Assembly (NCBI GenBank): GCA_945861615.1
Contig: CAMAVH010000012.1
Location: 1 to 37,411, forward strand
Source of the DNA: Rhizobium sp. Q54
Lineage (GTDB): Bacteria > Pseudomonadota > Alphaproteobacteria > SMXQ01
DNA length: 37,411 nt
Direction: 5' to 3'
In this document: in pieces, positions 7,125 to 32,469 of the stretch
Layout of the letters: each line of letters starts with the position of its first letter
Numbering within the stretch: position 1 is the first letter of the stretch
Translations under genes and position numbers: made by a program
The notes under the pieces: model-generated
Seen by the model: the letters and a program-made list of their open reading frames with translations, nothing else
Database searches by the model: none
Told to the model about the DNA's origin: nothing

Positions 7125-9971
7125 TTAGGCAACCGTCAAACTGTCGATGGCATCGGCGCAGCGGACGCAGGTGTCGTCATGCTTGGGATGCTGGCCGACT
7201 TCCTCCAGCACCCGCCAGCAGCGCTGGCATTTGGCGCCGTCGGCCAGTGCGACGACCACGGCGACGCCGGGCACGTCGGGCAGGCGGAAGGCATCCGCCG
7301 CGCCCCCACCTTCAAGAATGGCGCCGTCGAGCAAGGCGATGTCCGAAGTGATCGCTATTTCGGCAAGATCGAGGTCGGCGAGCGCCGCGCGATAGCTGGC
7401 GTCGGCATAGACCTTGGGCGAGGCCTGCAGGCTCGACCCGATCGTCTTGTTGGCGCGCGCCAGTTCCAGCGCGCCGGTGACGACGCGGCGCAGCTTGCGG
7501 ATGGTCTCCCACTTGGCAGCCAGGGCATCGTCCTGCCAGGCGGCGGGAATCGCCGGGAACTCGCGCAAGTGGACGCTGTCCGTCTCGCTCGGAAAGCGCG
7601 CCAGCCAAGCCTCTTCCGCGGTGAAGCAAAGCACCGGCGCGAGCCATGCGGTCAGGCAATTGAATAGCGTGTCCATCACCGTGCGCGCGGCGCGGCGGCG
7701 GATGCTGGTCGGCGCGTCGCAATAGAGCGCGTCTTTACGCACGTCGAAGTAGAAGGCCGAGAGATCGACGGCGCAGAAGCTGTGCAGCGCGGCGAAGAAA
7801 TTATGGAACTCGAAGCTGTCGCAGGCGGCGCGCAGCTGCTTGTCCATCAGCGCCACCTGGTGCAGCACCAGGCGCTCGAGCTCCGGCATCTGCTCGACCG
7901 GCAGGCGTTCGGCTTCGCTAAAGCCATCGAGCGCTCCTAAGAGGTAGCGCAGCGTGTTGCGCAGGCGGCGATAGGTGTCGGCCTGATATTTGAGAATCTC
8001 GGGGCCGATGCGCAGATCGTCGGAATAATCCGAGGCGATGACCCACAGGCGCAGGATGTCGGCGCCGAACTCTTCCATGACCTTCTGCGGCGCGACGACA
8101 TTGCCGAGCGACTTGGACATCTTGCGGCCCTGCTCGTCGAGCACGAAACCGTGGGTCAGCACGTTGTCGTAGGGCGCGCGGCCGCGCGTGCCGCAAGATT
8201 CCAAGAGCGACGACTGGAACCAGCCGCGATGCTGGTCGGAGCCTTCGAGATAGAGCGCGGCGGGCGAGCCAAGCTCGGGGCGCGCTTCGAGCACGAACGC
8301 ATGGGTGCTGCCCGAATCGAACCAGACGTCGAGGATGTCCTTCACCTGCTCGAAGTTCGCCGCGTCGTGCTCGGGCGCGAGGAAGCGCGACGGATCGGCG
8401 CTGAACCACACATCCGAGCCTTCGGCCTCGACCGCCTCGACGATGCGCTGCATCACTTTGGGATCGCGCAGCGGCTGGCCGCTGCGCTTGTCGACGAAGA
8501 CCGTGATGGGCGCGCCCCAAGCGCGCTGACGCGAGACGCACCAGTCGGGGCGGCCCTCGACCATGGCGCCGATGCGGTTGCGCCCGGCCGCCGGCACGAA
8601 GCGCGTGTCGTCGATGGCTTTCAGCGCCTTCTGGCGCAGCGTCTGGTTCTCGCCGATTGCCGGCTGATCCATGCCGATGAACCATTGCGGCGTGGTGCGG
8701 AAGATCAGCGGCGCCTTGGAGCGCCAGGAATGCGGGTAGGAGTGTACCAGCTTGCCATGTGCCAGCAGCGCGCCGACTTCGATCAGCTTCTCCAGCACCG
8801 GCTTGTCGGCCTTGAAGACATGCAGGCCGGCGAATAACGGCACACGCGGATAATAGGTGCCGTCCTCGGCGACCGTTTCCGGCACTTCGAGCTTGAACTT
8901 CTGGCCGACGACGAAGTCCTCGGCGCCATGGCCCGGCGCGGTATGGACGAAGCCGGTGCCCGCTTCGGTGGTGACATGGTCGCCCGGCAGCAATGGCACG
9001 TCGAAATCGTAACCCTGCCCGCGCCAGGGATGGGCGCAGACCGAGCCTTCAAGCTGCTCGCCCGTCAGCGTCGCGGCGATCTTATGGCCGGTGATCTTGG
9101 CCGAGGCGAGCAAACTGTCGAACAATTCGCGGACGACGAGGATCTTTTCGCCGACCTTGGCCAGGCTGCCCTCGCCTGCTTCGGTCACTTCGACGACGAG
9201 ATAGTCGAAGCTCGGGCCATAAGCGATGGCGCGGTTGCCCGGCAGCGTCCAGGGCGTCGTCGTCCAGATGACGATCGAGGCGCCCTTCAATTCGGCGAGC
9301 GACGTTTTCACCACGGGGAAGCGCACCCACACCGTGGTCGAGGTGTGATCGTGATATTCGACCTCGGCTTCGGCCAGCGCGGTCTTCTCGACCACCGACC
9401 ACATCACCGGCTTCACGCCTTTATAAAGCAGGCCGTTGAGCAGGAACTTGCCGAGCTCGCGCACGATCGACGCCTCGGCGGCGTTGGTCATGGTGGTGTA
9501 GGGATTGGCCCAGTCGCCGGCGACGCCGAGGCGCTTGAACTCCTCGCGCTGAATGTCGATCCACTCGGCGGCGAAGCGGCGGCACTCGTCGCGGAAATCG
9601 ATGATCGGTACCGCGTCCTTGTCTTTGCCCTTGGCGCGGTACTGTTCCTCGATCTTCCATTCGATCGGCAGGCCGTGGCAGTCCCAACCCGGCACGTAGG
9701 GCGAGTCGTAGCCGAGCATGCCGCGCGTGCGGTTGATGACGTCCTTCAGGATTTTGTTCAGCGCATGGCCGATGTGGATATTGCCGTTGGCGTAAGGCGG
9801 ACCGTCGTGCAGCACGAACTTCGGCCGGCCCTTGGCGCGGGCGCGCTGGGTCTCATAGAGGCCGATCTTGGCCCAGCGGGCGAGCAGCTCGGGCTCGCGT
9901 TGGGCGAGCCCTGCCTTCATCGGAAAGCCGGTCTTCGGCAGGAAAACGGTGGATTTATAGTCGGCGGCCAT
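7125..9971 (-). CDS. ileS: Isoleucyl-tRNA synthetase
   Basis: Class I aminoacyl-tRNA synthetase, 948 residues, the usual bacterial length. The HIGH motif is in GPPYANGNIHIGHALNK (His66-His69); KMSKSLGN lies near residue 616. The editing (CP1) domain carries WTTTPWTLPGNRA. The C-terminal zinc knuckle is present, with Cys pairs in CQRCW and CVRCA, typical of the bacterial type sensitive to mupirocin rather than the resistant eukaryote-like type. The ATG at 9971 has no clear Shine-Dalgarno sequence, but the N-terminus (DYKSTVFLPKTGFPMKAGL) matches the family start. The lspA gene follows after three bases. Confidence 0.98.
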   Translation of the reverse strand: MAADYKSTVFLPKTGFPMKAGLAQREPELLARWAKIGLYETQRARAKGRPKFVLHDGPPYANGNIHIGHALNKILKDVINRTRGMLGYDSPYVPGWDCHGLPIEWKIEEQYRAKGKDKDAVPIIDFRDECRRFAAEWIDIQREEFKRLGVAGDWANPYTTMTNAAEASIVRELGKFLLNGLLYKGVKPVMWSVVEKTALAEAEVEYHDHTSTTVWVRFPVVKTSLAELKGASIVIWTTTPWTLPGNRAIAYGPSFDYLVVEVTEAGEGSLAKVGEKILVVRELFDSLLASAKITGHKIAATLTGEQLEGSVCAHPWRGQGYDFDVPLLPGDHVTTEAGTGFVHTAPGHGAEDFVVGQKFKLEVPETVAEDGTYYPRVPLFAGLHVFKADKPVLEKLIEVGALLAHGKLVHSYPHSWRSKAPLIFRTTPQWFIGMDQPAIGENQTLRQKALKAIDDTRFVPAAGRNRIGAMVEGRPDWCVSRQRAWGAPITVFVDKRSGQPLRDPKVMQRIVEAVEAEGSDVWFSADPSRFLAPEHDAANFEQVKDILDVWFDSGSTHAFVLEARPELGSPAALYLEGSDQHRGWFQSSLLESCGTRGRAPYDNVLTHGFVLDEQGRKMSKSLGNVVAPQKVMEEFGADILRLWVIASDYSDDLRIGPEILKYQADTYRRLRNTLRYLLGALDGFSEAERLPVEQMPELERLVLHQVALMDKQLRAACDSFEFHNFFAALHSFCAVDLSAFYFDVRKDALYCDAPTSIRRRAARTVMDTLFNCLTAWLAPVLCFTAEEAWLARFPSETDSVHLREFPAIPAAWQDDALAAKWETIRKLRRVVTGALELARANKTIGSSLQASPKVYADASYRAALADLDLAEIAITSDIALLDGAILEGGGAADAFRLPDVPGVAVVVALADGAKCQRCWRVLEEVGQHPKHDDTCVRCADAIDSLTVA

Positions 9972-10074
9972 GGGACGGCAAATTTCGCTGAAAAATCAAA
10001 GGGTGGACGCGGAAAGCCTGCATAGGGGCCGCACTGTTCTCTATCGGCGGCGGCGCGTCAACCGCGCAGAACGC

Positions 10075-11049
10075 CTAGCCGAGCTTGAAGCCCGGGGCGG
10101 CGAAACGGGCCGCATCGGCGAGCACGGCACGGGCCTCGGCGGAGTCTTTCTGCATCTGGGCGATCAGCGGCTCGATGCCATCGAATTTGCGCTCCTCGCG
10201 CAGATATTCGATCAGGGCGACGCGCAGATGTTTGCCGTAGAGATCGCCGGAAAAGTCGAACAAATGCGCCTCGAAGCGCAAATCCCGGCCGGCGAAAGTC
10301 GGGCGCCAGCCGAGCGAGGCGACGCCGTCGCGCCACACCGTCTGTGCGCCCTCGTCGATGCCGGCGCGAATGGCGTAGATGCCGGCCTTGGGGCGCTGAT
10401 AATCGCCGAGCGGCAGATTGGCGGTGGGAAAACCGAGGGTGCGGCCGACGGCATCGCCATGCTCGACACGGCCGCCGATCTCCCAATAGCGGCCGAGCAG
10501 CTTGGCGGCCTCGGCCGGCTTGCCCTCGATCAGCAATTGGCGGATGCGGCGGGAGGCGATCACCGTGCCGTCGGGCTCGCGCTGGGTGAAGACGCGGGTG
10601 ATCTGGAAATCGAAGCGCCGCGCCAGCTCGCGCAGCAGTTGCACGTCGCCGGCGCGCTTATGGCCGAAGACGAAGTCCTCGCCGACGACGACATGACTGA
10701 CGCCGAAGCCGCTGACCAGAATGTCGATGACGAAATTCTCCGCCGGAATCTCGGCGAAGGCCTTGTGGAACTGCATGACGTAAAGGCAATCGACGCCGAG
10801 CAGCTCCATCTGATGAGCCTTGGTGCGCAGCGAACTAAGCCGGAATGGCGGCGCGTCGGGCTGGAAGATGCGTTTGGGATGCGGCTCGAACGTGAGAACG
10901 CCAAGCGGCTTGCCGGTGGCGCGGGCGATATCGCCGGCCGCACCGATGACAATGCGATGGCCACGATGCACGCCGTCGAAATTGCCGATAGCGACGACGG
11001 CGCCGGTGGCGTCGGGCGGCAAACCGTCATAATGGCGAAACAGGCGCAT
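10075..11049 (-). CDS. ribF: Bifunctional riboflavin kinase / FAD synthetase
   Basis: Makes FMN from riboflavin and FAD from FMN. The 324-residue protein has the N-terminal nucleotidyltransferase domain (AIGNFDGVHRGH at about residue 20, like the HxGH loop of this superfamily; TFEPHPKRIF) and the C-terminal kinase domain with GRTLGFPTANL and the closing region RVALIEYLREERKF. Both activities therefore look intact. It lies 103 bases upstream of ileS on the same strand, a common arrangement in proteobacteria (ribF-ileS-lspA). Confidence 0.96.
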   Translation of the reverse strand: MRLFRHYDGLPPDATGAVVAIGNFDGVHRGHRIVIGAAGDIARATGKPLGVLTFEPHPKRIFQPDAPPFRLSSLRTKAHQMELLGVDCLYVMQFHKAFAEIPAENFVIDILVSGFGVSHVVVGEDFVFGHKRAGDVQLLRELARRFDFQITRVFTQREPDGTVIASRRIRQLLIEGKPAEAAKLLGRYWEIGGRVEHGDAVGRTLGFPTANLPLGDYQRPKAGIYAIRAGIDEGAQTVWRDGVASLGWRPTFAGRDLRFEAHLFDFSGDLYGKHLRVALIEYLREERKFDGIEPLIAQMQKDSAEARAVLADAARFAAPGFKLG

Positions 11050-16080: not shown

Positions 16081-16146
16081 GCAGCGGTCATTCCACGCCC
16101 GACCGCGCAGCGGTCATTCGACGCCCGACCGCGCAGCGGTCATTCG
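16081..16146. repeat. 26-bp tandem repeat at the 3' end of the M29-like gene
   Basis: The unit beginning GCAGCGGTCATTC and ending GCCCGACCGC occurs at 16081-16106 and 16107-16132 with one mismatch, and its first 17 bases recur at 16133-16149, where they run into the last codons and stop of the minus-strand gene. The array fills nearly all of the short gap between two convergent genes. Confidence 0.8.
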
Positions 16147-17327
16147 ACGAAGGCTTCGAGCAGTTCGACCGGATCGCCGTATTTACTCGCCATCTCGACG
16201 ACCTGAGGGGCGCGCAATGCCATGAGAAAGCCGTTGTCGATCATCGTGCGGTTGCCGACCTTCACGGTGCTGTCCATCGTCACCAAGTCCATATGCTTGG
16301 GCGGCTCTTCCCAATTGGGCATGACGCGGCGGATGTAATTGCTCGGCGTCGCGTAATTGATGCCCCAATGGAGCGCCCCGGCGGCGTTCGAGCCGGCCGG
16401 ATAGATCGCATAGCGCGGCGCCTTCGGATTATGGCCGCAACCCAGTTCGGTGACTTTGCCGCCGACGATCATGTCGCGCAGGATGTCAGCCTCGCGCGAT
16501 TTGCCGTGGACCTTCATCACCTCGGTGTCTTTCCACTCGATGCCGATCTTCTCCTCGAACGGCTTGGGGAAGCCGATGGCCCATTGCGGATAGAGAATCC
16601 CCTCCATCTTGGCCACCGCGCCCGGCACGCGCTTGAAGGTCTCGCGGTCATAGATGTTCGGCCCGTGCGACGGCAGGTAATGCACGTAGCAGCCGGGCTC
16701 GTCGGCCATGGTCTTGCCGCGCCAGCGATTGCCGCTGAGCAGATTGTCGGTCATCTCGGCGGTGAAATGGATCGTCACGTCCGAGCCGCGCGCGTCGCTG
16801 AAATGCATGTCGAAGTCGGTGCCGCGCGGATAGGTCGCGGCATTGGCCCGCGTGATTTCGCCGACCAGCTCGACGGGAAAGCGCGCCTGCGGCGTCTGCA
16901 GCACGTCGAGATTGCGGAAATAGGTGATCTTCACCCAGCGCTGGCCCTTCTCTTTGCGCAGCTTCATGAACAGCGGCGCGTTGACCGAGGCGTACCAGCT
17001 GCCGATGACGAAAGTCGCGTCTTCGACCAGCGCGCGCGCCTCGTCCGGACAATCGGTCAGCTGCGTCGTCGGCGCCATGAATTCGCGGGTCTGCACGCCT
17101 CGCCCGCGGGCGATCCCGGCGATGGCATCGACCACGCGGCGATCGAGCAACGGATCGGTGAGGAAGAGGACTTTGTCATCCGGGCGGATGGCAAAGACCT
17201 TCATCATGTTATCGATCGCCTGGAAATAATTGCGCAGTGCGGTCTGCGGCAGGATGCGATCGGACGGCATGGCTTTGGCGGTCTTGCCGGCGAGAATGTC
17301 GGCGATGGTCGGTCCATGATGGGTCAT
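16140..17327 (-). CDS. M29 aminopeptidase / NicX-like putative metalloenzyme, copy 1
   Basis: 395-residue protein with no signal peptide. The start at 17327 (MTHHGPTIADILAGK) has AGGGAG seven bases upstream and matches the start of its paralogue at 22066-23259. I relate it to the M29 aminopeptidase fold, which also includes NicX 2,5-dihydroxypyridine dioxygenase. Possible metal ligands are Glu294 in TELGCGHNP, His320 in GALHWG, and the HxD pair His345/Asp347 in KHMDLV; all four are kept in the paralogue. In NicX an HxD pair and one further His bind Fe(II); here the position of that His appears to be a Glu, as in aminopeptidases. The assignment rests on motifs recalled from memory. It is divergent from a TctC receptor gene, suggesting joint function on an imported acid. 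Confidence 0.6.
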   Translation of the reverse strand: MTHHGPTIADILAGKTAKAMPSDRILPQTALRNYFQAIDNMMKVFAIRPDDKVLFLTDPLLDRRVVDAIAGIARGRGVQTREFMAPTTQLTDCPDEARALVEDATFVIGSWYASVNAPLFMKLRKEKGQRWVKITYFRNLDVLQTPQARFPVELVGEITRANAATYPRGTDFDMHFSDARGSDVTIHFTAEMTDNLLSGNRWRGKTMADEPGCYVHYLPSHGPNIYDRETFKRVPGAVAKMEGILYPQWAIGFPKPFEEKIGIEWKDTEVMKVHGKSREADILRDMIVGGKVTELGCGHNPKAPRYAIYPAGSNAAGALHWGINYATPSNYIRRVMPNWEEPPKHMDLVTMDSTVKVGNRTMIDNGFLMALRAPQVVEMASKYGDPVELLEAFVE

Positions 17328-17476
17328 GGCAAAACTCCCTGTGCCTGCGCGCCGGTTTCGACGCAATTGTTACGGCCATTGTCCGTAGCCGACGCATCGA
17401 TGTCCAGCAGGCCCATGAGAATCCTACAAAAACCCGTTCGACGGCGTGAATGCGTCACATCGACTGCCGTTAAGGT

Positions 17477-22065: not shown

Positions 22066-23259
22066 CTATTCCACGAAGGCTTCGAGCAGTTCGACAGGAT
22101 CGCCGTACTTGCTCGCCATCTCGACGACCTTGGGATCGCGCAGCGAGGTGAGGAAGCCATTGTCGATCAGCGTCGTGTTGCCGGCCTTCACCGTGGCGTC
22201 GAAGATCACGCAGTCCTGGTGGATATGCGGCTCCTCCCAGAACGGCACGACGCGCTGCATATATTCGCTCGGCCGGTTGCTGTCGGTGCCGAAATGCAGG
22301 GCGCCCGCCGAATTGGAGCCAGCCGGGTAGATGTTGTAGCGCGGCGCCTTCGGGTTGAAGCCGCAGCCCAGTTCGTGCAGCAGCGCTTCGCGGCCGACCA
22401 GCATGTCGCGCAGCACCTCGGCGTCGAGCGACCGGCCGTGCACCTTCTCGACGATGCCGTCCTTATATTCGATGCCGATCTTCTCCTCGAAGGGCTTGGG
22501 AAAACCCACCGCCCATTGCGGGAAGACCACGCCGCCCATTTGCGGACGGGCATGGGGATCGCGCTTGAATGCGCTATGGGCGTAGATGTTCGGCCCGTGC
22601 GCAGGCAGGTAATGGACATAGCAGCCATCGACGTCGCCGGTGTTCTCGCCGCGCCAGCGGTTATGCTCCAGCAGGTTCTTGGTCATTTCCGGCGTGAACT
22701 TGATCACCAGATCGGTGCCGCGCGCGTCGGCGAAGGTCATGTCGAATTCGCTGTCGCGCGGATATTGCCGCGCCGTAGCGCGGATGATCTCGCCGACCAA
22801 TTCGACGGGGAAGCGCGCCTGCGGCGAATTCAGCACGTCGAGATTGCGGAAATAGGTGATCTTGATCCAGCGCTGGCCCTTTTCCTTGCGCAGCTTGTTG
22901 AACAGGGGATAGCCGGTCGAGGCGAACCAGGTGGAGACGACGAAGTCCGCCTTCTCGATCAACGCCACCGCTTCGGGCGGCGGCTCGGTGATCTGACTGG
23001 TGTGGTGCATGAATTCCTTGGGCTTGCAGCCGCGCCCCAGCGCGATGCCCGACACCGCGTCGATGACGCGGCGGTCGAGCCCGGGATCGGTCAGGAACAC
23101 GACATTGTCGCCGGGTCGGATGGCAAACACCTTCATCATGTTGTCGATCGCCTGGAAGTAGTTGCGCAGTTCGGTCTGCGGCAACAGCTTGTCCGGCGGC
23201 ATGGCGTTGGCGGTTTTGCCGGCAAGAATATCGGCGATGGTCGGGCCGTGGTGAGCCAT
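22066..23259 (-). CDS. M29 aminopeptidase / NicX-like putative metalloenzyme, copy 2
   Basis: 397-residue paralogue of the protein at 16140-17327. The two share long identical stretches, for example HHGPTIADILAGKTA, LRNYFQAIDNMMKVFAIRP, ITYFRNLDVL and the last 20 residues. The proposed ligand set is conserved: Glu296 in HELGCGFNP, His322 in GALHFG, His347/Asp349 in IHQDCV. No signal peptide. The ATG at 23259 follows AGGGAG. It lies 55 bases after mmsA on the same strand and may be in its operon. A peptidase role is possible, but the pairing with acid-binding receptors and dehydrogenases in this window favours a small-molecule substrate. Conservation of the metal site in both copies suggests both are active. 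Confidence 0.6.
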   Translation of the reverse strand: MAHHGPTIADILAGKTANAMPPDKLLPQTELRNYFQAIDNMMKVFAIRPGDNVVFLTDPGLDRRVIDAVSGIALGRGCKPKEFMHHTSQITEPPPEAVALIEKADFVVSTWFASTGYPLFNKLRKEKGQRWIKITYFRNLDVLNSPQARFPVELVGEIIRATARQYPRDSEFDMTFADARGTDLVIKFTPEMTKNLLEHNRWRGENTGDVDGCYVHYLPAHGPNIYAHSAFKRDPHARPQMGGVVFPQWAVGFPKPFEEKIGIEYKDGIVEKVHGRSLDAEVLRDMLVGREALLHELGCGFNPKAPRYNIYPAGSNSAGALHFGTDSNRPSEYMQRVVPFWEEPHIHQDCVIFDATVKAGNTTLIDNGFLTSLRDPKVVEMASKYGDPVELLEAFVE

Positions 23260-24967: not shown

Positions 24968-26947
24968 CTAGATTTCGCGGAGAATACCGTCGCGCGTCCG
25001 CATGAAGAGCTTCACCTCGTTCTCGCGCATGGCGTAGTCGCTGTCGGCATGGAGTTTGATATCGCCGCCGTGGGCGATGGTGGCATTGTTGTTCGTGGCG
25101 ATGATGCGAATCTGCGCGCCATGGCCAATGCCCGAAAAGTCAGTGAAGCGCCGCTCGCTCGGCACGCTGAGATAGACCTCCTCGAACCCGTCGGCGGCGA
25201 TGACATTGCCGTCGATGACCTCCGCATAAGGCCGCGACCGGCGATCTTCGAAAGCGACTTCGCGCATCTTATCGCCGTCGCGAATCAAGGTGAGATAGAC
25301 GCCGGGCACGAGATAGCGCCCGACCCGGCAGGCATAAATGTCCGACGATTGCGGAATATAGACCGTGCGCTCGATATTGGCGTTGGTGAGCGAGATTTTC
25401 TGACCCTGGCTGTAATCGCTCGGCATCAGCCGCGGCACGAGCTCGCCGTCCCCGCGCCCGCTTTGCAGACTGATCGGCCCTTCGTTCTGCAGGCGGATCG
25501 GCTTCAAACCGTCGCTGATCGCCGTGGTGTTGGCGGCATCGTTGAAGCCGATCGCCTGATTGTCCCACATCAGCGGCATCGGGCCGCCTAACTCCGGCAA
25601 ATGCGCCAAGGTGTTTTCCACATGCCGCTGGGTGCGGAAGAAGATGTTCTTGCTGATGAAGACGCCATCGACATCGGCGCCCTTGATGTAGCTGTAAACG
25701 ATCGGCGCGAGGAATCGCAGGTTGCGTTCGATCGCCGGCCCGCTGGAGCCGATGAAGTTCTCGGAGACGACGATCGACTTGAGCTTGCAGCCGGCATCGC
25801 AGCCGATCGAGACGCCGACGCCGCCGTCCTTGGTCTGGCGGAGGATCGTATTGTTGCGGATCATCACGCCGTTGATGATCGGGCCGGACAAGCCCTTCTT
25901 GCCGGGGCTGAGCAAAATCGCCGCGTGATGCGGCAGGCCGTAGCCGCAATCGACGAAAGTGTTTTCGGAGATGAAGGTGGCGCCGTTTTCGATATTGAAA
26001 AACAGGCCGTACTCGCTGCAATCGGAGAATACGTTCCCCGATACGATGCAGGGGAAAGGACTATCCCAGGCCGTCTGGATATTGAAGCCGAAACGCGCCC
26101 GCTCGACACGGTTGTTGAGATAGCGGGCTTCCTTGGCGTAATGAAAGTTCTCCACGCAGGCGTGGGCTGCATCGTAAAGGTGATTGTCGCGGACCACCGC
26201 CGAGGCGCTGAAGGAAATGCAGTCGCCGTTGGTGGCGTGCAGTTCGCAGCCTTCGATCACCAGATCGTCGATGAACCGGCCGCCGCCATAGATGATCTCG
26301 CCACGGAAATCATGGGCATGGACATTGCGCACGACGATGCGCCGATGATGCTTGTCTTCCTGGATATAGATGCCCTTGTGGCTGATATCCCAGCCGCCCG
26401 GCGCGGTCTCGTTCGCCGGCCAGGTGCGGTCGCCGTTGTTGCCGGGCCGCACGCCGCCGTCGATCGCCAAATCCTCGATCGTGATGTTGCGGCGGGCGGT
26501 TTGCGCGCTCTCGCCGCCGACGATGAACAACGCGCTGCCGCGCCAGACGGCACGGCGGGCGTCGTCCTCGTACCAGCGGGAAAGCTCATATTGCGTCGTC
26601 GGATCGCCGCCGCCCAAGGTGCGGAACAATAGCTTGGTCAAAGCCGCGCCGTCGCCGCGCAAGGTCACGTTGTCCCAGGCGACATGCAGGGCGTGGGCCC
26701 GCAACCGGTCCACCGCGACGCTGGCCTGCGGCTGAACGCGATAATTGCCCGCCGGCAAATAGACGATGCCGCCGCCGGCCCGGCCGATCTCGTCGATGGC
26801 CGCTTGAATCGCCGGCGTGTCGTCGGCAACGCCGTCGCCCTTGGCGCCGAAGCCCTGCACATTGGCGACGGGGCCGGGCAAATGGCGGCGCAGCGCATCC
26901 TTGCTGACGGGACCGTTGGCCGGAAACAGGCTGTGCATGTCGGTCAT
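24968..26947 (-). CDS. Right-handed beta-helix (pectate-lyase superfamily) protein
   Basis: 659-residue repetitive protein. The N-terminal segment VQGFGAKGDGVADDTPAIQAAID followed by GGIVYLPAGNYRVQP is the classic Pectate_lyase_3 / GH28 opening. The middle (about residues 150-450) is made of short repeated strands with N, I, V and G spacing (for example IVVRNVHAHDFRGEIIYGGG, LVIEGCELHATNGDCISF), as expected for a parallel beta-helix. A compact C-terminal region follows from about residue 500. There is no signal peptide although such proteins usually act outside the cell; a tiny TAT-lipoprotein ORF ends 37 bases upstream. AGGGG precedes ATG 26947. The glycan substrate, if any, is unknown. Confidence 0.78.
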   Translation of the reverse strand: MTDMHSLFPANGPVSKDALRRHLPGPVANVQGFGAKGDGVADDTPAIQAAIDEIGRAGGGIVYLPAGNYRVQPQASVAVDRLRAHALHVAWDNVTLRGDGAALTKLLFRTLGGGDPTTQYELSRWYEDDARRAVWRGSALFIVGGESAQTARRNITIEDLAIDGGVRPGNNGDRTWPANETAPGGWDISHKGIYIQEDKHHRRIVVRNVHAHDFRGEIIYGGGRFIDDLVIEGCELHATNGDCISFSASAVVRDNHLYDAAHACVENFHYAKEARYLNNRVERARFGFNIQTAWDSPFPCIVSGNVFSDCSEYGLFFNIENGATFISENTFVDCGYGLPHHAAILLSPGKKGLSGPIINGVMIRNNTILRQTKDGGVGVSIGCDAGCKLKSIVVSENFIGSSGPAIERNLRFLAPIVYSYIKGADVDGVFISKNIFFRTQRHVENTLAHLPELGGPMPLMWDNQAIGFNDAANTTAISDGLKPIRLQNEGPISLQSGRGDGELVPRLMPSDYSQGQKISLTNANIERTVYIPQSSDIYACRVGRYLVPGVYLTLIRDGDKMREVAFEDRRSRPYAEVIDGNVIAADGFEEVYLSVPSERRFTDFSGIGHGAQIRIIATNNNATIAHGGDIKLHADSDYAMRENEVKLFMRTRDGILREI

Positions 26948-26983
26948 GGACTCAGCCCCTCTTTCGCGCGCGCGGCGGCATGC

Positions 26984-27139
26984 TCACGGGGAGAAATCCG
27001 TGCCGTCATCGAAGAAGGCCGTCGCGGGGGGCGCGGGCGGGCGCTCCGCCGCACATCCGGCCAGACCCGCGACCAAGAGGGCCCCCATGCTGCTTTGCAG
27101 CAGGGCGCGGCGGCTCAGGAGGCAAGAGCCGGAACCCAC
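26984..27139 (-). CDS. Tiny TAT-type lipoprotein ORF
   Basis: 51 residues from a GTG at 27139 (weak AAGAG site), or 76 from a TTG at 27214. A twin-arginine motif SRRALLQ is followed by a hydrophobic stretch (MGALLVAGLAG) and a lipobox LAGC. The mature part is only about 23 residues, rich in Pro and Ala and ending FFDDGTDFSP. It precedes the beta-helix gene by 37 bases on the same strand. It may be a real small lipoprotein, or the detached export signal of an ancestral beta-helix lipoprotein. The TTG start lacks a ribosome site, so GTG is preferred. Confidence 0.5.
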   Translation of the reverse strand: MGSGSCLLSRRALLQSSMGALLVAGLAGCAAERPPAPPATAFFDDGTDFSP

Positions 27140-27280
27140 AACGGGGCTCTTACCGATCCGCGATGGCCATAAGCGGTTCACAAAGACGGGCCTTTGAGAA
27201 TGGGCGATAGCCAAACTTGATAAGGCCGCAAGCCCCGCCTGTCAAAGCCGACGGCGACCCGCCACGACAAGCCCCTATCC

Positions 27281-28384
27281 TCAGGCGTCTGCCGACTCGC
27301 TCACATCGAGCGGCGCGACGAGTTTGACGCCGGCAATCTGTACGCCCTTGCCCGTGCGGCTGCTGCGCTGTTCGGGCGACACCACGCGTCCGTTCGGATC
27401 GTTCAGCCACAGGCGCAGAAGATGTCGTCTGCGCGACGCCTCGGGCCAATCCTCGTACCCTCGCCGGGTATGCAACATGACCCAGTTGTTGAGGAACTGG
27501 ATATCACCGCGCTCGAAGCCGATATCGACGGCGCATTCGTCGACCGTCTGGCGATAGAGCTCGACCGCCTCCTTTTGCGCCGTGGTGAAGGGCGGCACGC
27601 CGGGCAGCTTTTGCGCCTTGTCGATCACCGCGCCGACGCCGATGGCGCTGAAATAGCCTTCGGCAAAGGAAAAGATCGGCTGCTTGAAGTAGGGCAATTC
27701 GCCGGGATTGATCTCGCCCGTGCGCGAACGATAAAAATCCTCGGTCAGCACCTTCACCAGGTCCGGGCGTTGCGCCAGCATGCGGTTATAGACAGTGACC
27801 GAACTCACGACGCGGCTTTCGCCGCCCGATTTCGAGGTCTGCAGGCACAACAGGCCGACGTAATCGCAGCCGTCGGAATGGAAGCGCATCTCGGCGTTGG
27901 TCATATAGCCGCGGGTCTTCGCGTCGCTGTAATCGCCGCCGAGGTCTTTCACATGGCCGAGAATGTGACCGTGCTTGTTCTGCGACATCGGGTTGCCCAG
28001 ATAGCAGCCAAGGCCGAGATAGGCGATGGCGGTTTCCTCGCGGTCGAAGGCGTCGAGCGGAAAATGCCGCATCATGACGATGCCGCGCCCATCCAGCAGT
28101 TCGCGGCGAATGTCACGCAAGGTTTCCCCGAACGTCGCGAGAGGGAAATCCGCGCGCGAAACCGCCTCGATCGGCTTGCCGCTGCGCCGGAATGCCGCGA
28201 CGGCGGCCTGCAGCTCCGCGACGTCGGCGGCGGTGATGTCATAGCTCCAGGTCGAAACATTCCGCAGTTCGTTGGCGAGCCAGCCTGCCGGATCGACCAC
28301 AGGATCCATCGCCCGCGCCGGCATGCGCCGCGCCTCCAGATAGCTCCGAAAATTGTCCCGCGAACCGCTGGTCGAGATGTTCAT
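27281..28384 (-). CDS. TauD/TfdA-like Fe(II)/2-oxoglutarate dioxygenase
   Basis: 367-residue dioxygenase of the TauD/TfdA family. Iron ligands are His169 and Asp171 (FHSDGCDYVG) and the distal His305 in NNWVMLHTRRGYED, with a conserved Arg in RRHLLRLWLNDP that holds 2-oxoglutarate. The N-terminus (MNISTSGSRDNFRSYLEARR) follows GGGGAGG with five-base spacing, which sets the start at 28384 against a longer frame to 28492. Members attack taurine, aryloxyalkanoates, gamma-butyrobetaine and other acids; the substrate is not evident. A possible promoter with an overlapping dyad lies at 28418-28446. Confidence 0.87.
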   Translation of the reverse strand: MNISTSGSRDNFRSYLEARRMPARAMDPVVDPAGWLANELRNVSTWSYDITAADVAELQAAVAAFRRSGKPIEAVSRADFPLATFGETLRDIRRELLDGRGIVMMRHFPLDAFDREETAIAYLGLGCYLGNPMSQNKHGHILGHVKDLGGDYSDAKTRGYMTNAEMRFHSDGCDYVGLLCLQTSKSGGESRVVSSVTVYNRMLAQRPDLVKVLTEDFYRSRTGEINPGELPYFKQPIFSFAEGYFSAIGVGAVIDKAQKLPGVPPFTTAQKEAVELYRQTVDECAVDIGFERGDIQFLNNWVMLHTRRGYEDWPEASRRRHLLRLWLNDPNGRVVSPEQRSSRTGKGVQIAGVKLVAPLDVSESADA

Positions 28385-28417
28385 CTGCGCCTCCCCATTT
28401 TCCCTCAGCTTTATCCC

Positions 28418-28446
28418 ATAGCAGGCGCTATGCAAGACCCGTGCAA
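28418..28446 (-). promoter_or_regulatory. Putative promoter with overlapping dyad for the dioxygenase gene
   Basis: On the minus strand TTGCAC (28446-28441), 17 bases, then TGCTAT (28423-28418) resemble a sigma-70 promoter 34 bases before the ATG. The perfect dyad ATAGC-AGGC-GCTAT (28418-28431) overlaps the -10, as an operator would. Confidence 0.35.
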
Positions 28447-28530
28447 TGCAAAAAGACCAGCGACGGAACCATCCTTTAGAGGGATTCCGCATTCATATCT
28501 TTCGCTGATTGAAATGCTTGGGAATTCGCC

Positions 28531-30536: not shown

Positions 30537-30893
30537 CTATTTCACCGTCACCAGCAAAAGCATTTTCGGATGAATATGGCATCTCACTTCATATAAGCCG
30601 GGCGCCGTGAACTCGACGGGAATAACATGGCCGGGGTCGGATTCCGCCGAGTCGAATTTAAAGGCCCGCGCATCGATGAAGATCTGATGGATGAATTCAT
30701 CGTCGTTGTTAAAGCGTACCGTGTCGCCGCGATCGACAGACAACTCCTTCAGATTGAAGGCGCGCCCTTTTTGCGAGATGTCGTGGAAGCTTTTGGCGAA
30801 GGCCAGACTTCCGCTCAGCGTGAGGACGAAAACCGCGAAGGCGATCAGCGCTTCGCGCCAAAATGGAACGGACAAGCGAGAGAGACGGATCAT
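30537..30893 (-). CDS. Exported cupredoxin (methylamine-utilisation/plastocyanin-like)
   Basis: 118-residue small copper protein. A signal peptide covers residues 1 to about 33 (SLAFA cleavage). The mature part is a short cupredoxin domain: DTVRFNNDDEFIHQIFID contains the first copper ligand His69, and VRCHIHPKM supplies Cys105, His108 and Met111, the full type 1 copper set. It should carry single electrons in the periplasm. Its ATG overlaps the stop of the truncated haemoglobin gene (ATGA, 30890-30893), so the two are made together. The partner is unknown; pairing with a haem protein is suggestive of electron exchange. Confidence 0.88.
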   Translation of the reverse strand: MIRLSRLSVPFWREALIAFAVFVLTLSGSLAFAKSFHDISQKGRAFNLKELSVDRGDTVRFNNDDEFIHQIFIDARAFKFDSAESDPGHVIPVEFTAPGLYEVRCHIHPKMLLLVTVK

Positions 30894-31366
30894 CTAGTCA
30901 CCACATCGCGTTGCATCGCCGCGAGCAAAGCCATGAGGCGATTCTGCGTGCTGAAGGGAATGCCGACATCGTCCATAGCCAGCTGCAAGTTTTCTGCAAG
31001 CGCATTGAACTTCGCCTGGTTGAGATGCAGCCCCTTATGGGAGGCATACATGTCGCGGCCGGTATATTGGCAAGGGCCGCCCGCGATCTGGCATATCTGA
31101 TCGGAGATACGCGACTTCAGGCGGTCGAGATTAATGTTGTCGAATTCGTCGAGTATGCGTGGATCGGCAAGCCATTTTATCATCGCGACGTCGATCATCT
31201 TGACGATGTTGTCCTTGCCGCCAAGTCCGCGATAGAGCGAGTCGTCGGCGGCGTGGCTATGACGGGCAAAACCTGCTGCCAAGGTCGCGGCGGCGAGCAG
31301 CCCGATGAACGCGGCGCGCATCAAACGCGGCCATGACGAACGATGAGAAAAGGCGACCGTCGGCAT
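30890..31366 (-). CDS. Exported group 1 truncated haemoglobin
   Basis: 158-residue globin with an N-terminal signal peptide (Arg/Trp-containing start, hydrophobic residues about 18-33, cleavage near HSHA). The mature part matches the group 1 truncated haemoglobin pattern: SLYRGLGGKDNI, WLADPRI, then GGPCQYTGRDMYASHKGLHL, in which His110 is the proximal haem ligand. The B10 position, usually Tyr, appears to be Met62. Cys92 and Cys99 could form a disulfide outside the cytoplasm. Most truncated haemoglobins are cytoplasmic, so export is noteworthy. It overlaps both its neighbours by 1-4 bases (DUF3034 upstream, cupredoxin downstream). Confidence 0.88.
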   Translation of the reverse strand: MPTVAFSHRSSWPRLMRAAFIGLLAAATLAAGFARHSHAADDSLYRGLGGKDNIVKMIDVAMIKWLADPRILDEFDNINLDRLKSRISDQICQIAGGPCQYTGRDMYASHKGLHLNQAKFNALAENLQLAMDDVGIPFSTQNRLMALLAAMQRDVVTR

Positions 31367-32256
31367 CAGAACCCCGCCTGCAAAGAGACGTAAAGGCCGT
31401 TCTGGTCCTTCTGGGTCGCGATGTCGCCCAGCATGGTATAGGCGGCCGTGAGTGAAATATTCTTATTGAGGAAGAAGGCGATGAAGACATCGCCTGCATT
31501 TTCTTCCTTGGCGAAGGCGAGGTTGTCGGGCTTGGTGCGGTAATCCACGCCGAGCACCAACTGGCGCGACAGCAGATAGGCCACCGAGCCCTCGAACTGC
31601 AATTTGTAATCGTCGTTCTTACCGCCGCCGAAGCCGAGGATGCCATATTGATTGGCGCGCGTTTCTCGCAAGGTCACGTTGACCAGCAGGCTGTGGGCGA
31701 GGAACAGCTTGCTCGCGGCGATATAGTAATCGACGCCCTCATCATCCTTCGCGCCGATCGCGGTCAGCGTCCCATGCCGATCGTTGGCCTTATATTGAAT
31801 GCCGAAAGCGACCTGCGGCAGCCACCTGTCCTGATCGTAGATGGCGTCGCCGAACAGCCGCACCTTCGCCCCGACGATATCCTGGTGAAAGGTGAACCCT
31901 TGACCGAGGCCGAGCAGAATGCCGGTGTCTTTCGTGTTGAAGGCTTGGCGCGCATAGGAAAGCTCGACACGGTCGAACAGACCGATGGCAATCCCGCCGG
32001 TATTGAGATCAAAATCCGATAGGCCAACGAAGGTGTAATGAACGTTCGCACCAATGGCATCGCGCGTGCCGTAACCGGTGATGAGCGCCCACGGCACCAG
32101 GCCGCTGCCGCCGGCCCCTTCGATCTGCGAGACCCCGCCCGTTGCCAGCAGCTTGCCGCTATCGAACAGGTCGTCGGCGAGCAACGGCGATGCGCCTGCC
32201 ACAGAAACAACCGCGCCACAGAAGATCTCTCCCAGGCGGCGAAAAAAGGCAGACAT
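31366..32256 (-). CDS. DUF3034 outer-membrane beta-barrel protein
   Basis: 296 residues from the chosen start at 32256 (MSAFFRRLGEIF), which gives a clean signal peptide ending near LLADD; starts at 32295 or 32271 are possible, and none has a strong ribosome site. The mature start DDLFDSGKLLATGGVSQIEGAGGSGLVPW is the DUF3034 signature. The rest alternates amphipathic strands with aromatic girdle residues and ends in Phe (VSLQAGF), a C-terminal signal for outer-membrane barrels. Its stop overlaps the globin start (TGATG). Family function is unknown; it is the first gene of the envelope unit. Confidence 0.85.
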   Translation of the reverse strand: MSAFFRRLGEIFCGAVVSVAGASPLLADDLFDSGKLLATGGVSQIEGAGGSGLVPWALITGYGTRDAIGANVHYTFVGLSDFDLNTGGIAIGLFDRVELSYARQAFNTKDTGILLGLGQGFTFHQDIVGAKVRLFGDAIYDQDRWLPQVAFGIQYKANDRHGTLTAIGAKDDEGVDYYIAASKLFLAHSLLVNVTLRETRANQYGILGFGGGKNDDYKLQFEGSVAYLLSRQLVLGVDYRTKPDNLAFAKEENAGDVFIAFFLNKNISLTAAYTMLGDIATQKDQNGLYVSLQAGF

Positions 32257-32469
32257 CCTGTCGAATTCCATTCGAGAAAAGCCCCGTCGGCACACGAGGC
32301 TTCACTAGAAATCTTTTCCCTTAATTAACCCTTAAAAGCGCGCCACTGGAGCGGGCGGCAAGCCCTAGAAAGTCCCGCGGCGCTTGACTCATGGGCGAGG
32401 CTTGAGCATTTAGCCGTCACATTTTCCATAACGCATCAACCATACGTTTGTATTCCTAAGCGAGCGGCT

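Follow-up and report, generated by a model that had tools for sequence, protein, structure and literature searches.

The locus raises the question of whether a tiny lipoprotein with a twin-arginine signal and the signal-less beta-helix protein encoded immediately after it are independent products, pieces of a broken gene, or partners in export. Both genes lie on the minus strand of the window, which is the whole 37,411-nucleotide stretch analyzed here from Rhizobium sp. Q54 (contig CAMAVH010000012.1). The small ORF (positions 26984 to 27181) encodes a 65-amino-acid Tat-type lipoprotein precursor, ends in a TGA stop (26984 to 26986), and has an orthologue in a sister species, Rhodospirillaceae bacterium MAG CANJIM010000034.1 (genome G001, locus L022). 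A full twin-arginine motif, a lipobox, and about 23 mature residues had been described in the original prediction, and all three were found on the minus strand. The twin-arginine motif reads SRRALLQ (27095 to 27115; SRRAMLQ in the sister species) and forms part of an extended motif, SRRA(L/M)LQSS, common to the small proteins of both species. The signal peptide is closed by LAGC (27053 to 27064) or, in the sister species, LSGC, the feature by which a bacterial lipoprotein is recognized, and both tetrapeptides are lipoboxes under the general lipobox rule. The mature part consists of 23 residues, CAAERPPAPPATAFFDDGTDFSP, with the C-terminal tail FFDDGTDFSP (26987 to 27016; FFDDGSNFAP in the sister species), which may serve in docking. 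As a motif match only, SRRALLQ and SRRAMLQ both satisfy the Tat pattern RR-X-[FGAVML][LITMVF] as it is quoted in PMC2758597. A strict pattern combining Tat motif and lipobox occurred once in the window, compared with 4 of 200 first-order Markov simulations (mean, 0.02).

The original prediction had placed the start of the small ORF at GTG 27139, which is not conserved in the sister species. GTG 27181 appears to be the better start, as it is shared between the two species: both proteins begin with MNRL, an AAGG-type site lies 8 to 9 nucleotides before the GTG (AAAGG at 27191 to 27195, resembling a Shine-Dalgarno [SD] sequence, with GAAGG in the corresponding position of the sister sequence), and the same promoter-like arrangement is present upstream in both. 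This arrangement (27217 to 27245, minus strand) comprises TTGACA (27245 to 27240), a 17-nucleotide spacer, and TATCAA (27222 to 27217); it was not reported by a consensus scanner because that program accepts only a -10 element ending in T. The 51-amino-acid form of the small protein matched no Pfam or NCBIfam family.

Several other features of the surrounding sequence were recorded. The TauD-type dioxygenase encoded upstream (27281 to 28492) belongs to an expanded family, with up to 11 matches (E value of 1e-30) in G010, a genome of the family. Besides its syntenic counterpart, the segment at positions 9688 to 10877 of the sister locus has a further match in the window, at 74.5%, which suggests that positions 16140 to 17366 and 22066 to 23259 are two related stretches under minus-strand frames of approximately 400 codons, neither of which gave a Pfam match. 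A globin-type protein (PF01152) with an N terminus that looks signal-like by eye is encoded at 30890 to 32295, adjoining a DUF3034 protein.

Comparison of the two species indicates from the substitution pattern that the small ORF is a real gene under protein-level constraint. The proteins, of 65 and 67 amino acids (the latter in the sister species), share 57% identity over the alignment, and the dN/dS ratio over 65 aligned codons was 0.27, with 17, 16, and 31 differences at the three codon positions. No stop interrupts the alignment, in which 37 of 65 aligned residues are identical; when the 64 substitutions were placed at random, at least 37 residues were kept in 0.22% of 10,000 trials, and an in-frame stop arose in 59% of trials. 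Both versions keep exactly 23 mature residues, ending in FFDDG(T/S)(D/N)F(S/A)P, although with only two orthologues the tail motif FFDDGxxFxP rests on one comparison. Gene order, the promoter-like site, and the length of the gap between the two genes are all retained in the sister species.

That gap (26948 to 26983, minus strand) measures 36 nucleotides, one fewer than the 37 bases originally given. The two ORFs share a reading frame; in both species one stop and 12 sense codons lie between them, with no further stop, and the gap contains an SD-like GAGGGG. It had been proposed that the signal was split from the enzyme by mutation, and that an alignment of orthologues might show the two fused. 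The sister species has two separate ORFs and no fusion, with the same stop and an equal 36-nucleotide gap. Separate, unfused orthologues had been named in advance as the refuting outcome, and against the split reading this outcome was obtained: the identical layout rules out both a sequencing error and a split of recent date. An ancient version of the split, in which a TGA interrupted a fused Tat lipoprotein/beta-helix gene prior to the divergence of the species and the downstream part came to be translated from its own ATG, survives on the shared frame and single stop as an improbable explanation. The same frame, single stop, and 12 intervening sense codons in both species are what such a history would leave behind, and fused Tat signals do occur on other PF12708 proteins. 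Against it, a gap that keeps the frame is expected one time in three by chance, the small ORF is still constrained and its mature part has stayed at exactly 23 residues, as would not be expected of a remnant in decay, no fused relative was found among overlapping samples of 116, 385, 398, and 298 genomes, and the nearest of the more distant beta-helix relatives show no visible signal. An ancient split does not conflict with a present-day role of the small protein in carrying its neighbor.

The preserved in-frame layout with one stop is also what would be expected if readthrough of the TGA, or insertion of selenocysteine there, yielded a lipid-anchored beta-helix protein as part of the product, which we regard as very improbable. 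The gap diverges like noncoding DNA and lacks codon periodicity, with four differences at each codon position and 4 of 12 residues matching, whereas a third-position excess is present on both sides of it: the final 12 codons of the small ORF differ 3, 1, and 5 times by codon position and the opening 12 codons of the beta-helix gene 2, 1, and 4 times (third positions account for 5 of 9 and 4 of 7, respectively). SD-like sites precede the beta-helix ATG in both species, and the RNA fold after the TGA was not unusual (z = 0.90). Searches with RF01852 and ARAGORN confirmed no tRNA-Sec in the genome; the RF01852 match over the cutoff was a tRNA-Ser and the remaining matches fell below it. This tRNA-Ser (contig C130 of genome G000, locus L057) scored 51.8 bits against a gathering cutoff of 47 and is a false-positive trap for such searches. 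Given the absence of codon periodicity in the gap and the identity of that match, the small ORF and the beta-helix gene are best read as separately translated.

The downstream gene (24968 to 26947, minus strand, with its ATG at 26947) encodes a 659-amino-acid right-handed beta-helix protein in which PF12708, PF13229, and PF05048 all exceeded their cutoffs, PF12708 (Pect-lyase_RHGA_epim) with 55.7 bits against a cutoff of 27. The original prediction that it lacks an export signal held, as inspection of its N terminus, MTDMHSLFPANGPVSKDALRRHLPGP, by eye revealed none, and the stretch before the beta-helix (locus L073) has a low hydropathy maximum of 0.22. The protein is 93% identical between the two species (dN/dS, 0.064), and sequence conservation rises sharply at the ATG, from which it follows that the protein starts there, without a signal. 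A first structure model, built from two sequences, had a pLDDT of 30 and was unusable. The second, built from 16 sequences, had a mean pLDDT of 53 and was confident only over approximately residues 20 to 330, to which statements on the fold are limited. The best solved matches were the A-modules of the mannuronan C5-epimerases AlgE6 and AlgE4 (Z score of 28.1 over 332 and 325 residues, 3.1 Å), followed by the RbmB lyase (Z score of 26.7 over 309 residues, 3.0 Å) and the Sf6 tailspike (Z score of 24.2 over 304 residues, 3.1 Å); polygalacturonases and tailspikes were also among the best matches, which spanned Z scores of 24 to 28 and 2.6 to 4.0 Å overall. With AlgE4 and AlgE6, identity over the aligned part is 21 to 22%, and the likeness is one of fold. 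Foldseek applied to the whole model gave low TM scores (TMq of 0.16 to 0.40 among the matches listed), and the fold statements therefore rest on the structural alignments with Z scores. As the model aligns best to glycan enzymes and tailspikes, the protein probably acts on polysaccharides, as an enzyme or a binder.

To establish how widespread the pair is, 11 genomes of the family were searched, also for gene order. Both genes were found in 2 of the 11, the same two in each case, and no occurrence of the pair outside this genus was seen. A class-wide search with the two small proteins gave matches in 7 of 289 genomes, the genome analyzed here included; the sister genome was absent from these matches and seemingly lies outside that sample. 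The other six matches covered only the signal stretch, fell within frames 212 to 396 codons long, and were rejected. Farther afield, the beta-helix protein has its closest relatives in genomes of another family of the same class (f13), found first in genome G614 and then in 17 of 298 genomes. Of 20 f13 matches, L113 is a further segment of the G614 protein, which left 19 loci for inspection. None showed a visible signal, and no fused Tat form was found in this branch; loose RR-type stretches lay upstream in five of the 19, but by eye none of these has a plausible small ORF or a lipobox. Of 16 loci examined further (L112, L114, and L115 were left out; 14 entered alignment A4), 15 have an unrelated open frame of 149 to 266 codons that ends by overlapping the beta-helix start in an ATGA-type arrangement. 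The upstream partner in G614 matched nothing in Pfam, PHROG, or PDB. In three genomes (G614, G1008, and G883; loci L094, L116, and L117) the module, in which a partner of approximately 150 amino acids overlaps a gene for a 650-amino-acid signal-less beta-helix protein, lies near gyrB among ordinary genes. The f13 two-gene module may be a spike module derived from a gene transfer agent (GTA) or phage. A survey of PF12708 in the class left 25 further proteins (28 rows less the window's own locus, L073, and two second matches in one protein, counting L074 with L082 and L086 with L060); by eye, three carry an RR-type signal, fused to the protein (L076, L077, and L085), four a Sec-type signal, and 18 no visible signal.

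These relatives bear on an explanation that ranks just below the one favored here and is almost as likely, namely, that the two genes make independent products: a stand-alone lipoprotein of the size class of the entericidins and, beside it, a tailspike-type beta-helix protein without a signal that stays in the cytoplasm or is released by lysis, as phage and GTA spikes are. It agrees with the signal-less f13 loci and their unrelated overlapping frame, and PHROG matched the beta-helix protein almost exclusively to tail spikes or fibers. Moreover, the tailspike TspA (Rcc02623) of RcGTA, as described in PMC13420450, is an alphaproteobacterial beta-helix spike that is encoded outside the main virion cluster and degrades biofilm; it differs in having 763 residues and an N-terminal carbohydrate-binding domain and in being virion bound. 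However, the lipoprotein and beta-helix genes remain neighbors and are found together in the same two genomes, and no phage gene was found in the scanned part of the window, where 9 of 20 frames in one set had no Pfam match. No viral relative was confirmed in viral_contigs; 17 matches in phage records were partial, none reaching 80% coverage, and plasmids gave one partial match, with none for the small protein. Tat would also be an odd route for an unfolded 23-residue peptide, which on its own would have little need of it; such a signal would be sensible mainly if a folded partner were carried.

The main explanation, which we favor tentatively and at less than even odds, is that the minimal Tat lipoprotein serves the folded beta-helix protein as both escort and anchor. 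In this two-gene unit, the first gene would supply the lipoprotein and the second the beta-helix protein, which would fold in the cytoplasm and be bound there by the 23-residue mature peptide with its FFDDGxxFxP end. The twin-arginine signal would then take the complex through the Tat translocase, the beta-helix protein traveling as a hitchhiker, and signal peptidase II and lipidation would turn the peptide into a membrane anchor. Under the Lol rule, Ala at position +2 directs a lipoprotein to the outer membrane, and the Ala found here suggests that destination. We infer that the genes form an operon and that their products form a complex that is co-exported, anchored, and enzymatically active.

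In favor of this proposal, the constrained small ORF has kept its lipobox, its Tat motif, and a mature length of 23 residues; the gap length, the promoter-like site, and the order of the genes are conserved, with both genes in the same 2 of 11 genomes; and the beta-helix protein starts without a signal in genomes that both encode TatC. Three marks of a Tat hitchhiker pair can be read from the sequences: a partner with a twin-arginine motif, a cargo with no signal visible by eye, and neighboring genes conserved together; a complex of the two proteins and cargo export that depends on Tat and on the partner would complete the set. The fold further resembles mostly extracellular glycan enzymes, which must reach glycans outside the cytoplasm, and beta-helix proteins are known to use Tat, as judged by eye for the three PF12708 proteins above and as described in PMC7949094 for WceF of Pantoea stewartii, a tailspike-like trimeric beta-helix protein in which the signal is fused to the enzyme. 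Partnering of this kind, the second reading offered in the original prediction, also fits the conserved adjacency and has experimental precedents. In Streptomyces, the helper MelC1 bears a Tat signal and exports the signal-less tyrosinase MelC2 (PMC2758597), a layout like that of the present gene pair, with the helper gene upstream and the enzyme gene downstream; MelC1 differs in that it also loads copper, it is not described as a lipoprotein in the cited passages, and no sequence relation is claimed. In the Escherichia coli PaoABC and HybOC systems, one partner with a Tat signal likewise carries signal-less partners, with PaoA taking PaoB and PaoC out (PMC4273604), but these carriers are subunits of redox enzymes, whereas here the carrier would consist of 23 mature residues and a lipobox.

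Several observations weaken the proposal. The Tat signal is called from its motif only, and Sec lipoproteins may also carry arginines. Known Tat escorts are larger folded subunits and not 23-residue tails, and MelC1 too is larger than the present small protein. The small protein (57% identity) evolves much faster than the beta-helix protein (93%), only two orthologues are available, and the promoter scanner reported no site. As the closest distant relatives have no visible signal or Tat partner, proteins of this branch may ordinarily lack a signal.

It is more doubtful still that the 23-residue lipidated tail represents the smallest natural Tat escort and anchor, making an envelope glycan enzyme of a phage-type spike; "smallest" here is relative to known escorts and to literature searches in which no paper was recognized as describing so small a lipoprotein in the role of Tat escort. 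If the proposal is true, a short, detachable, separately encoded peptide would suffice to export and anchor a large folded protein, and annotation would overlook such escorts and label their cargo cytoplasmic. The peptide would provide a compact tag for Tat export, and the pair would represent a route by which a bacterium brings a tailspike-type protein that lacks a signal into its envelope.
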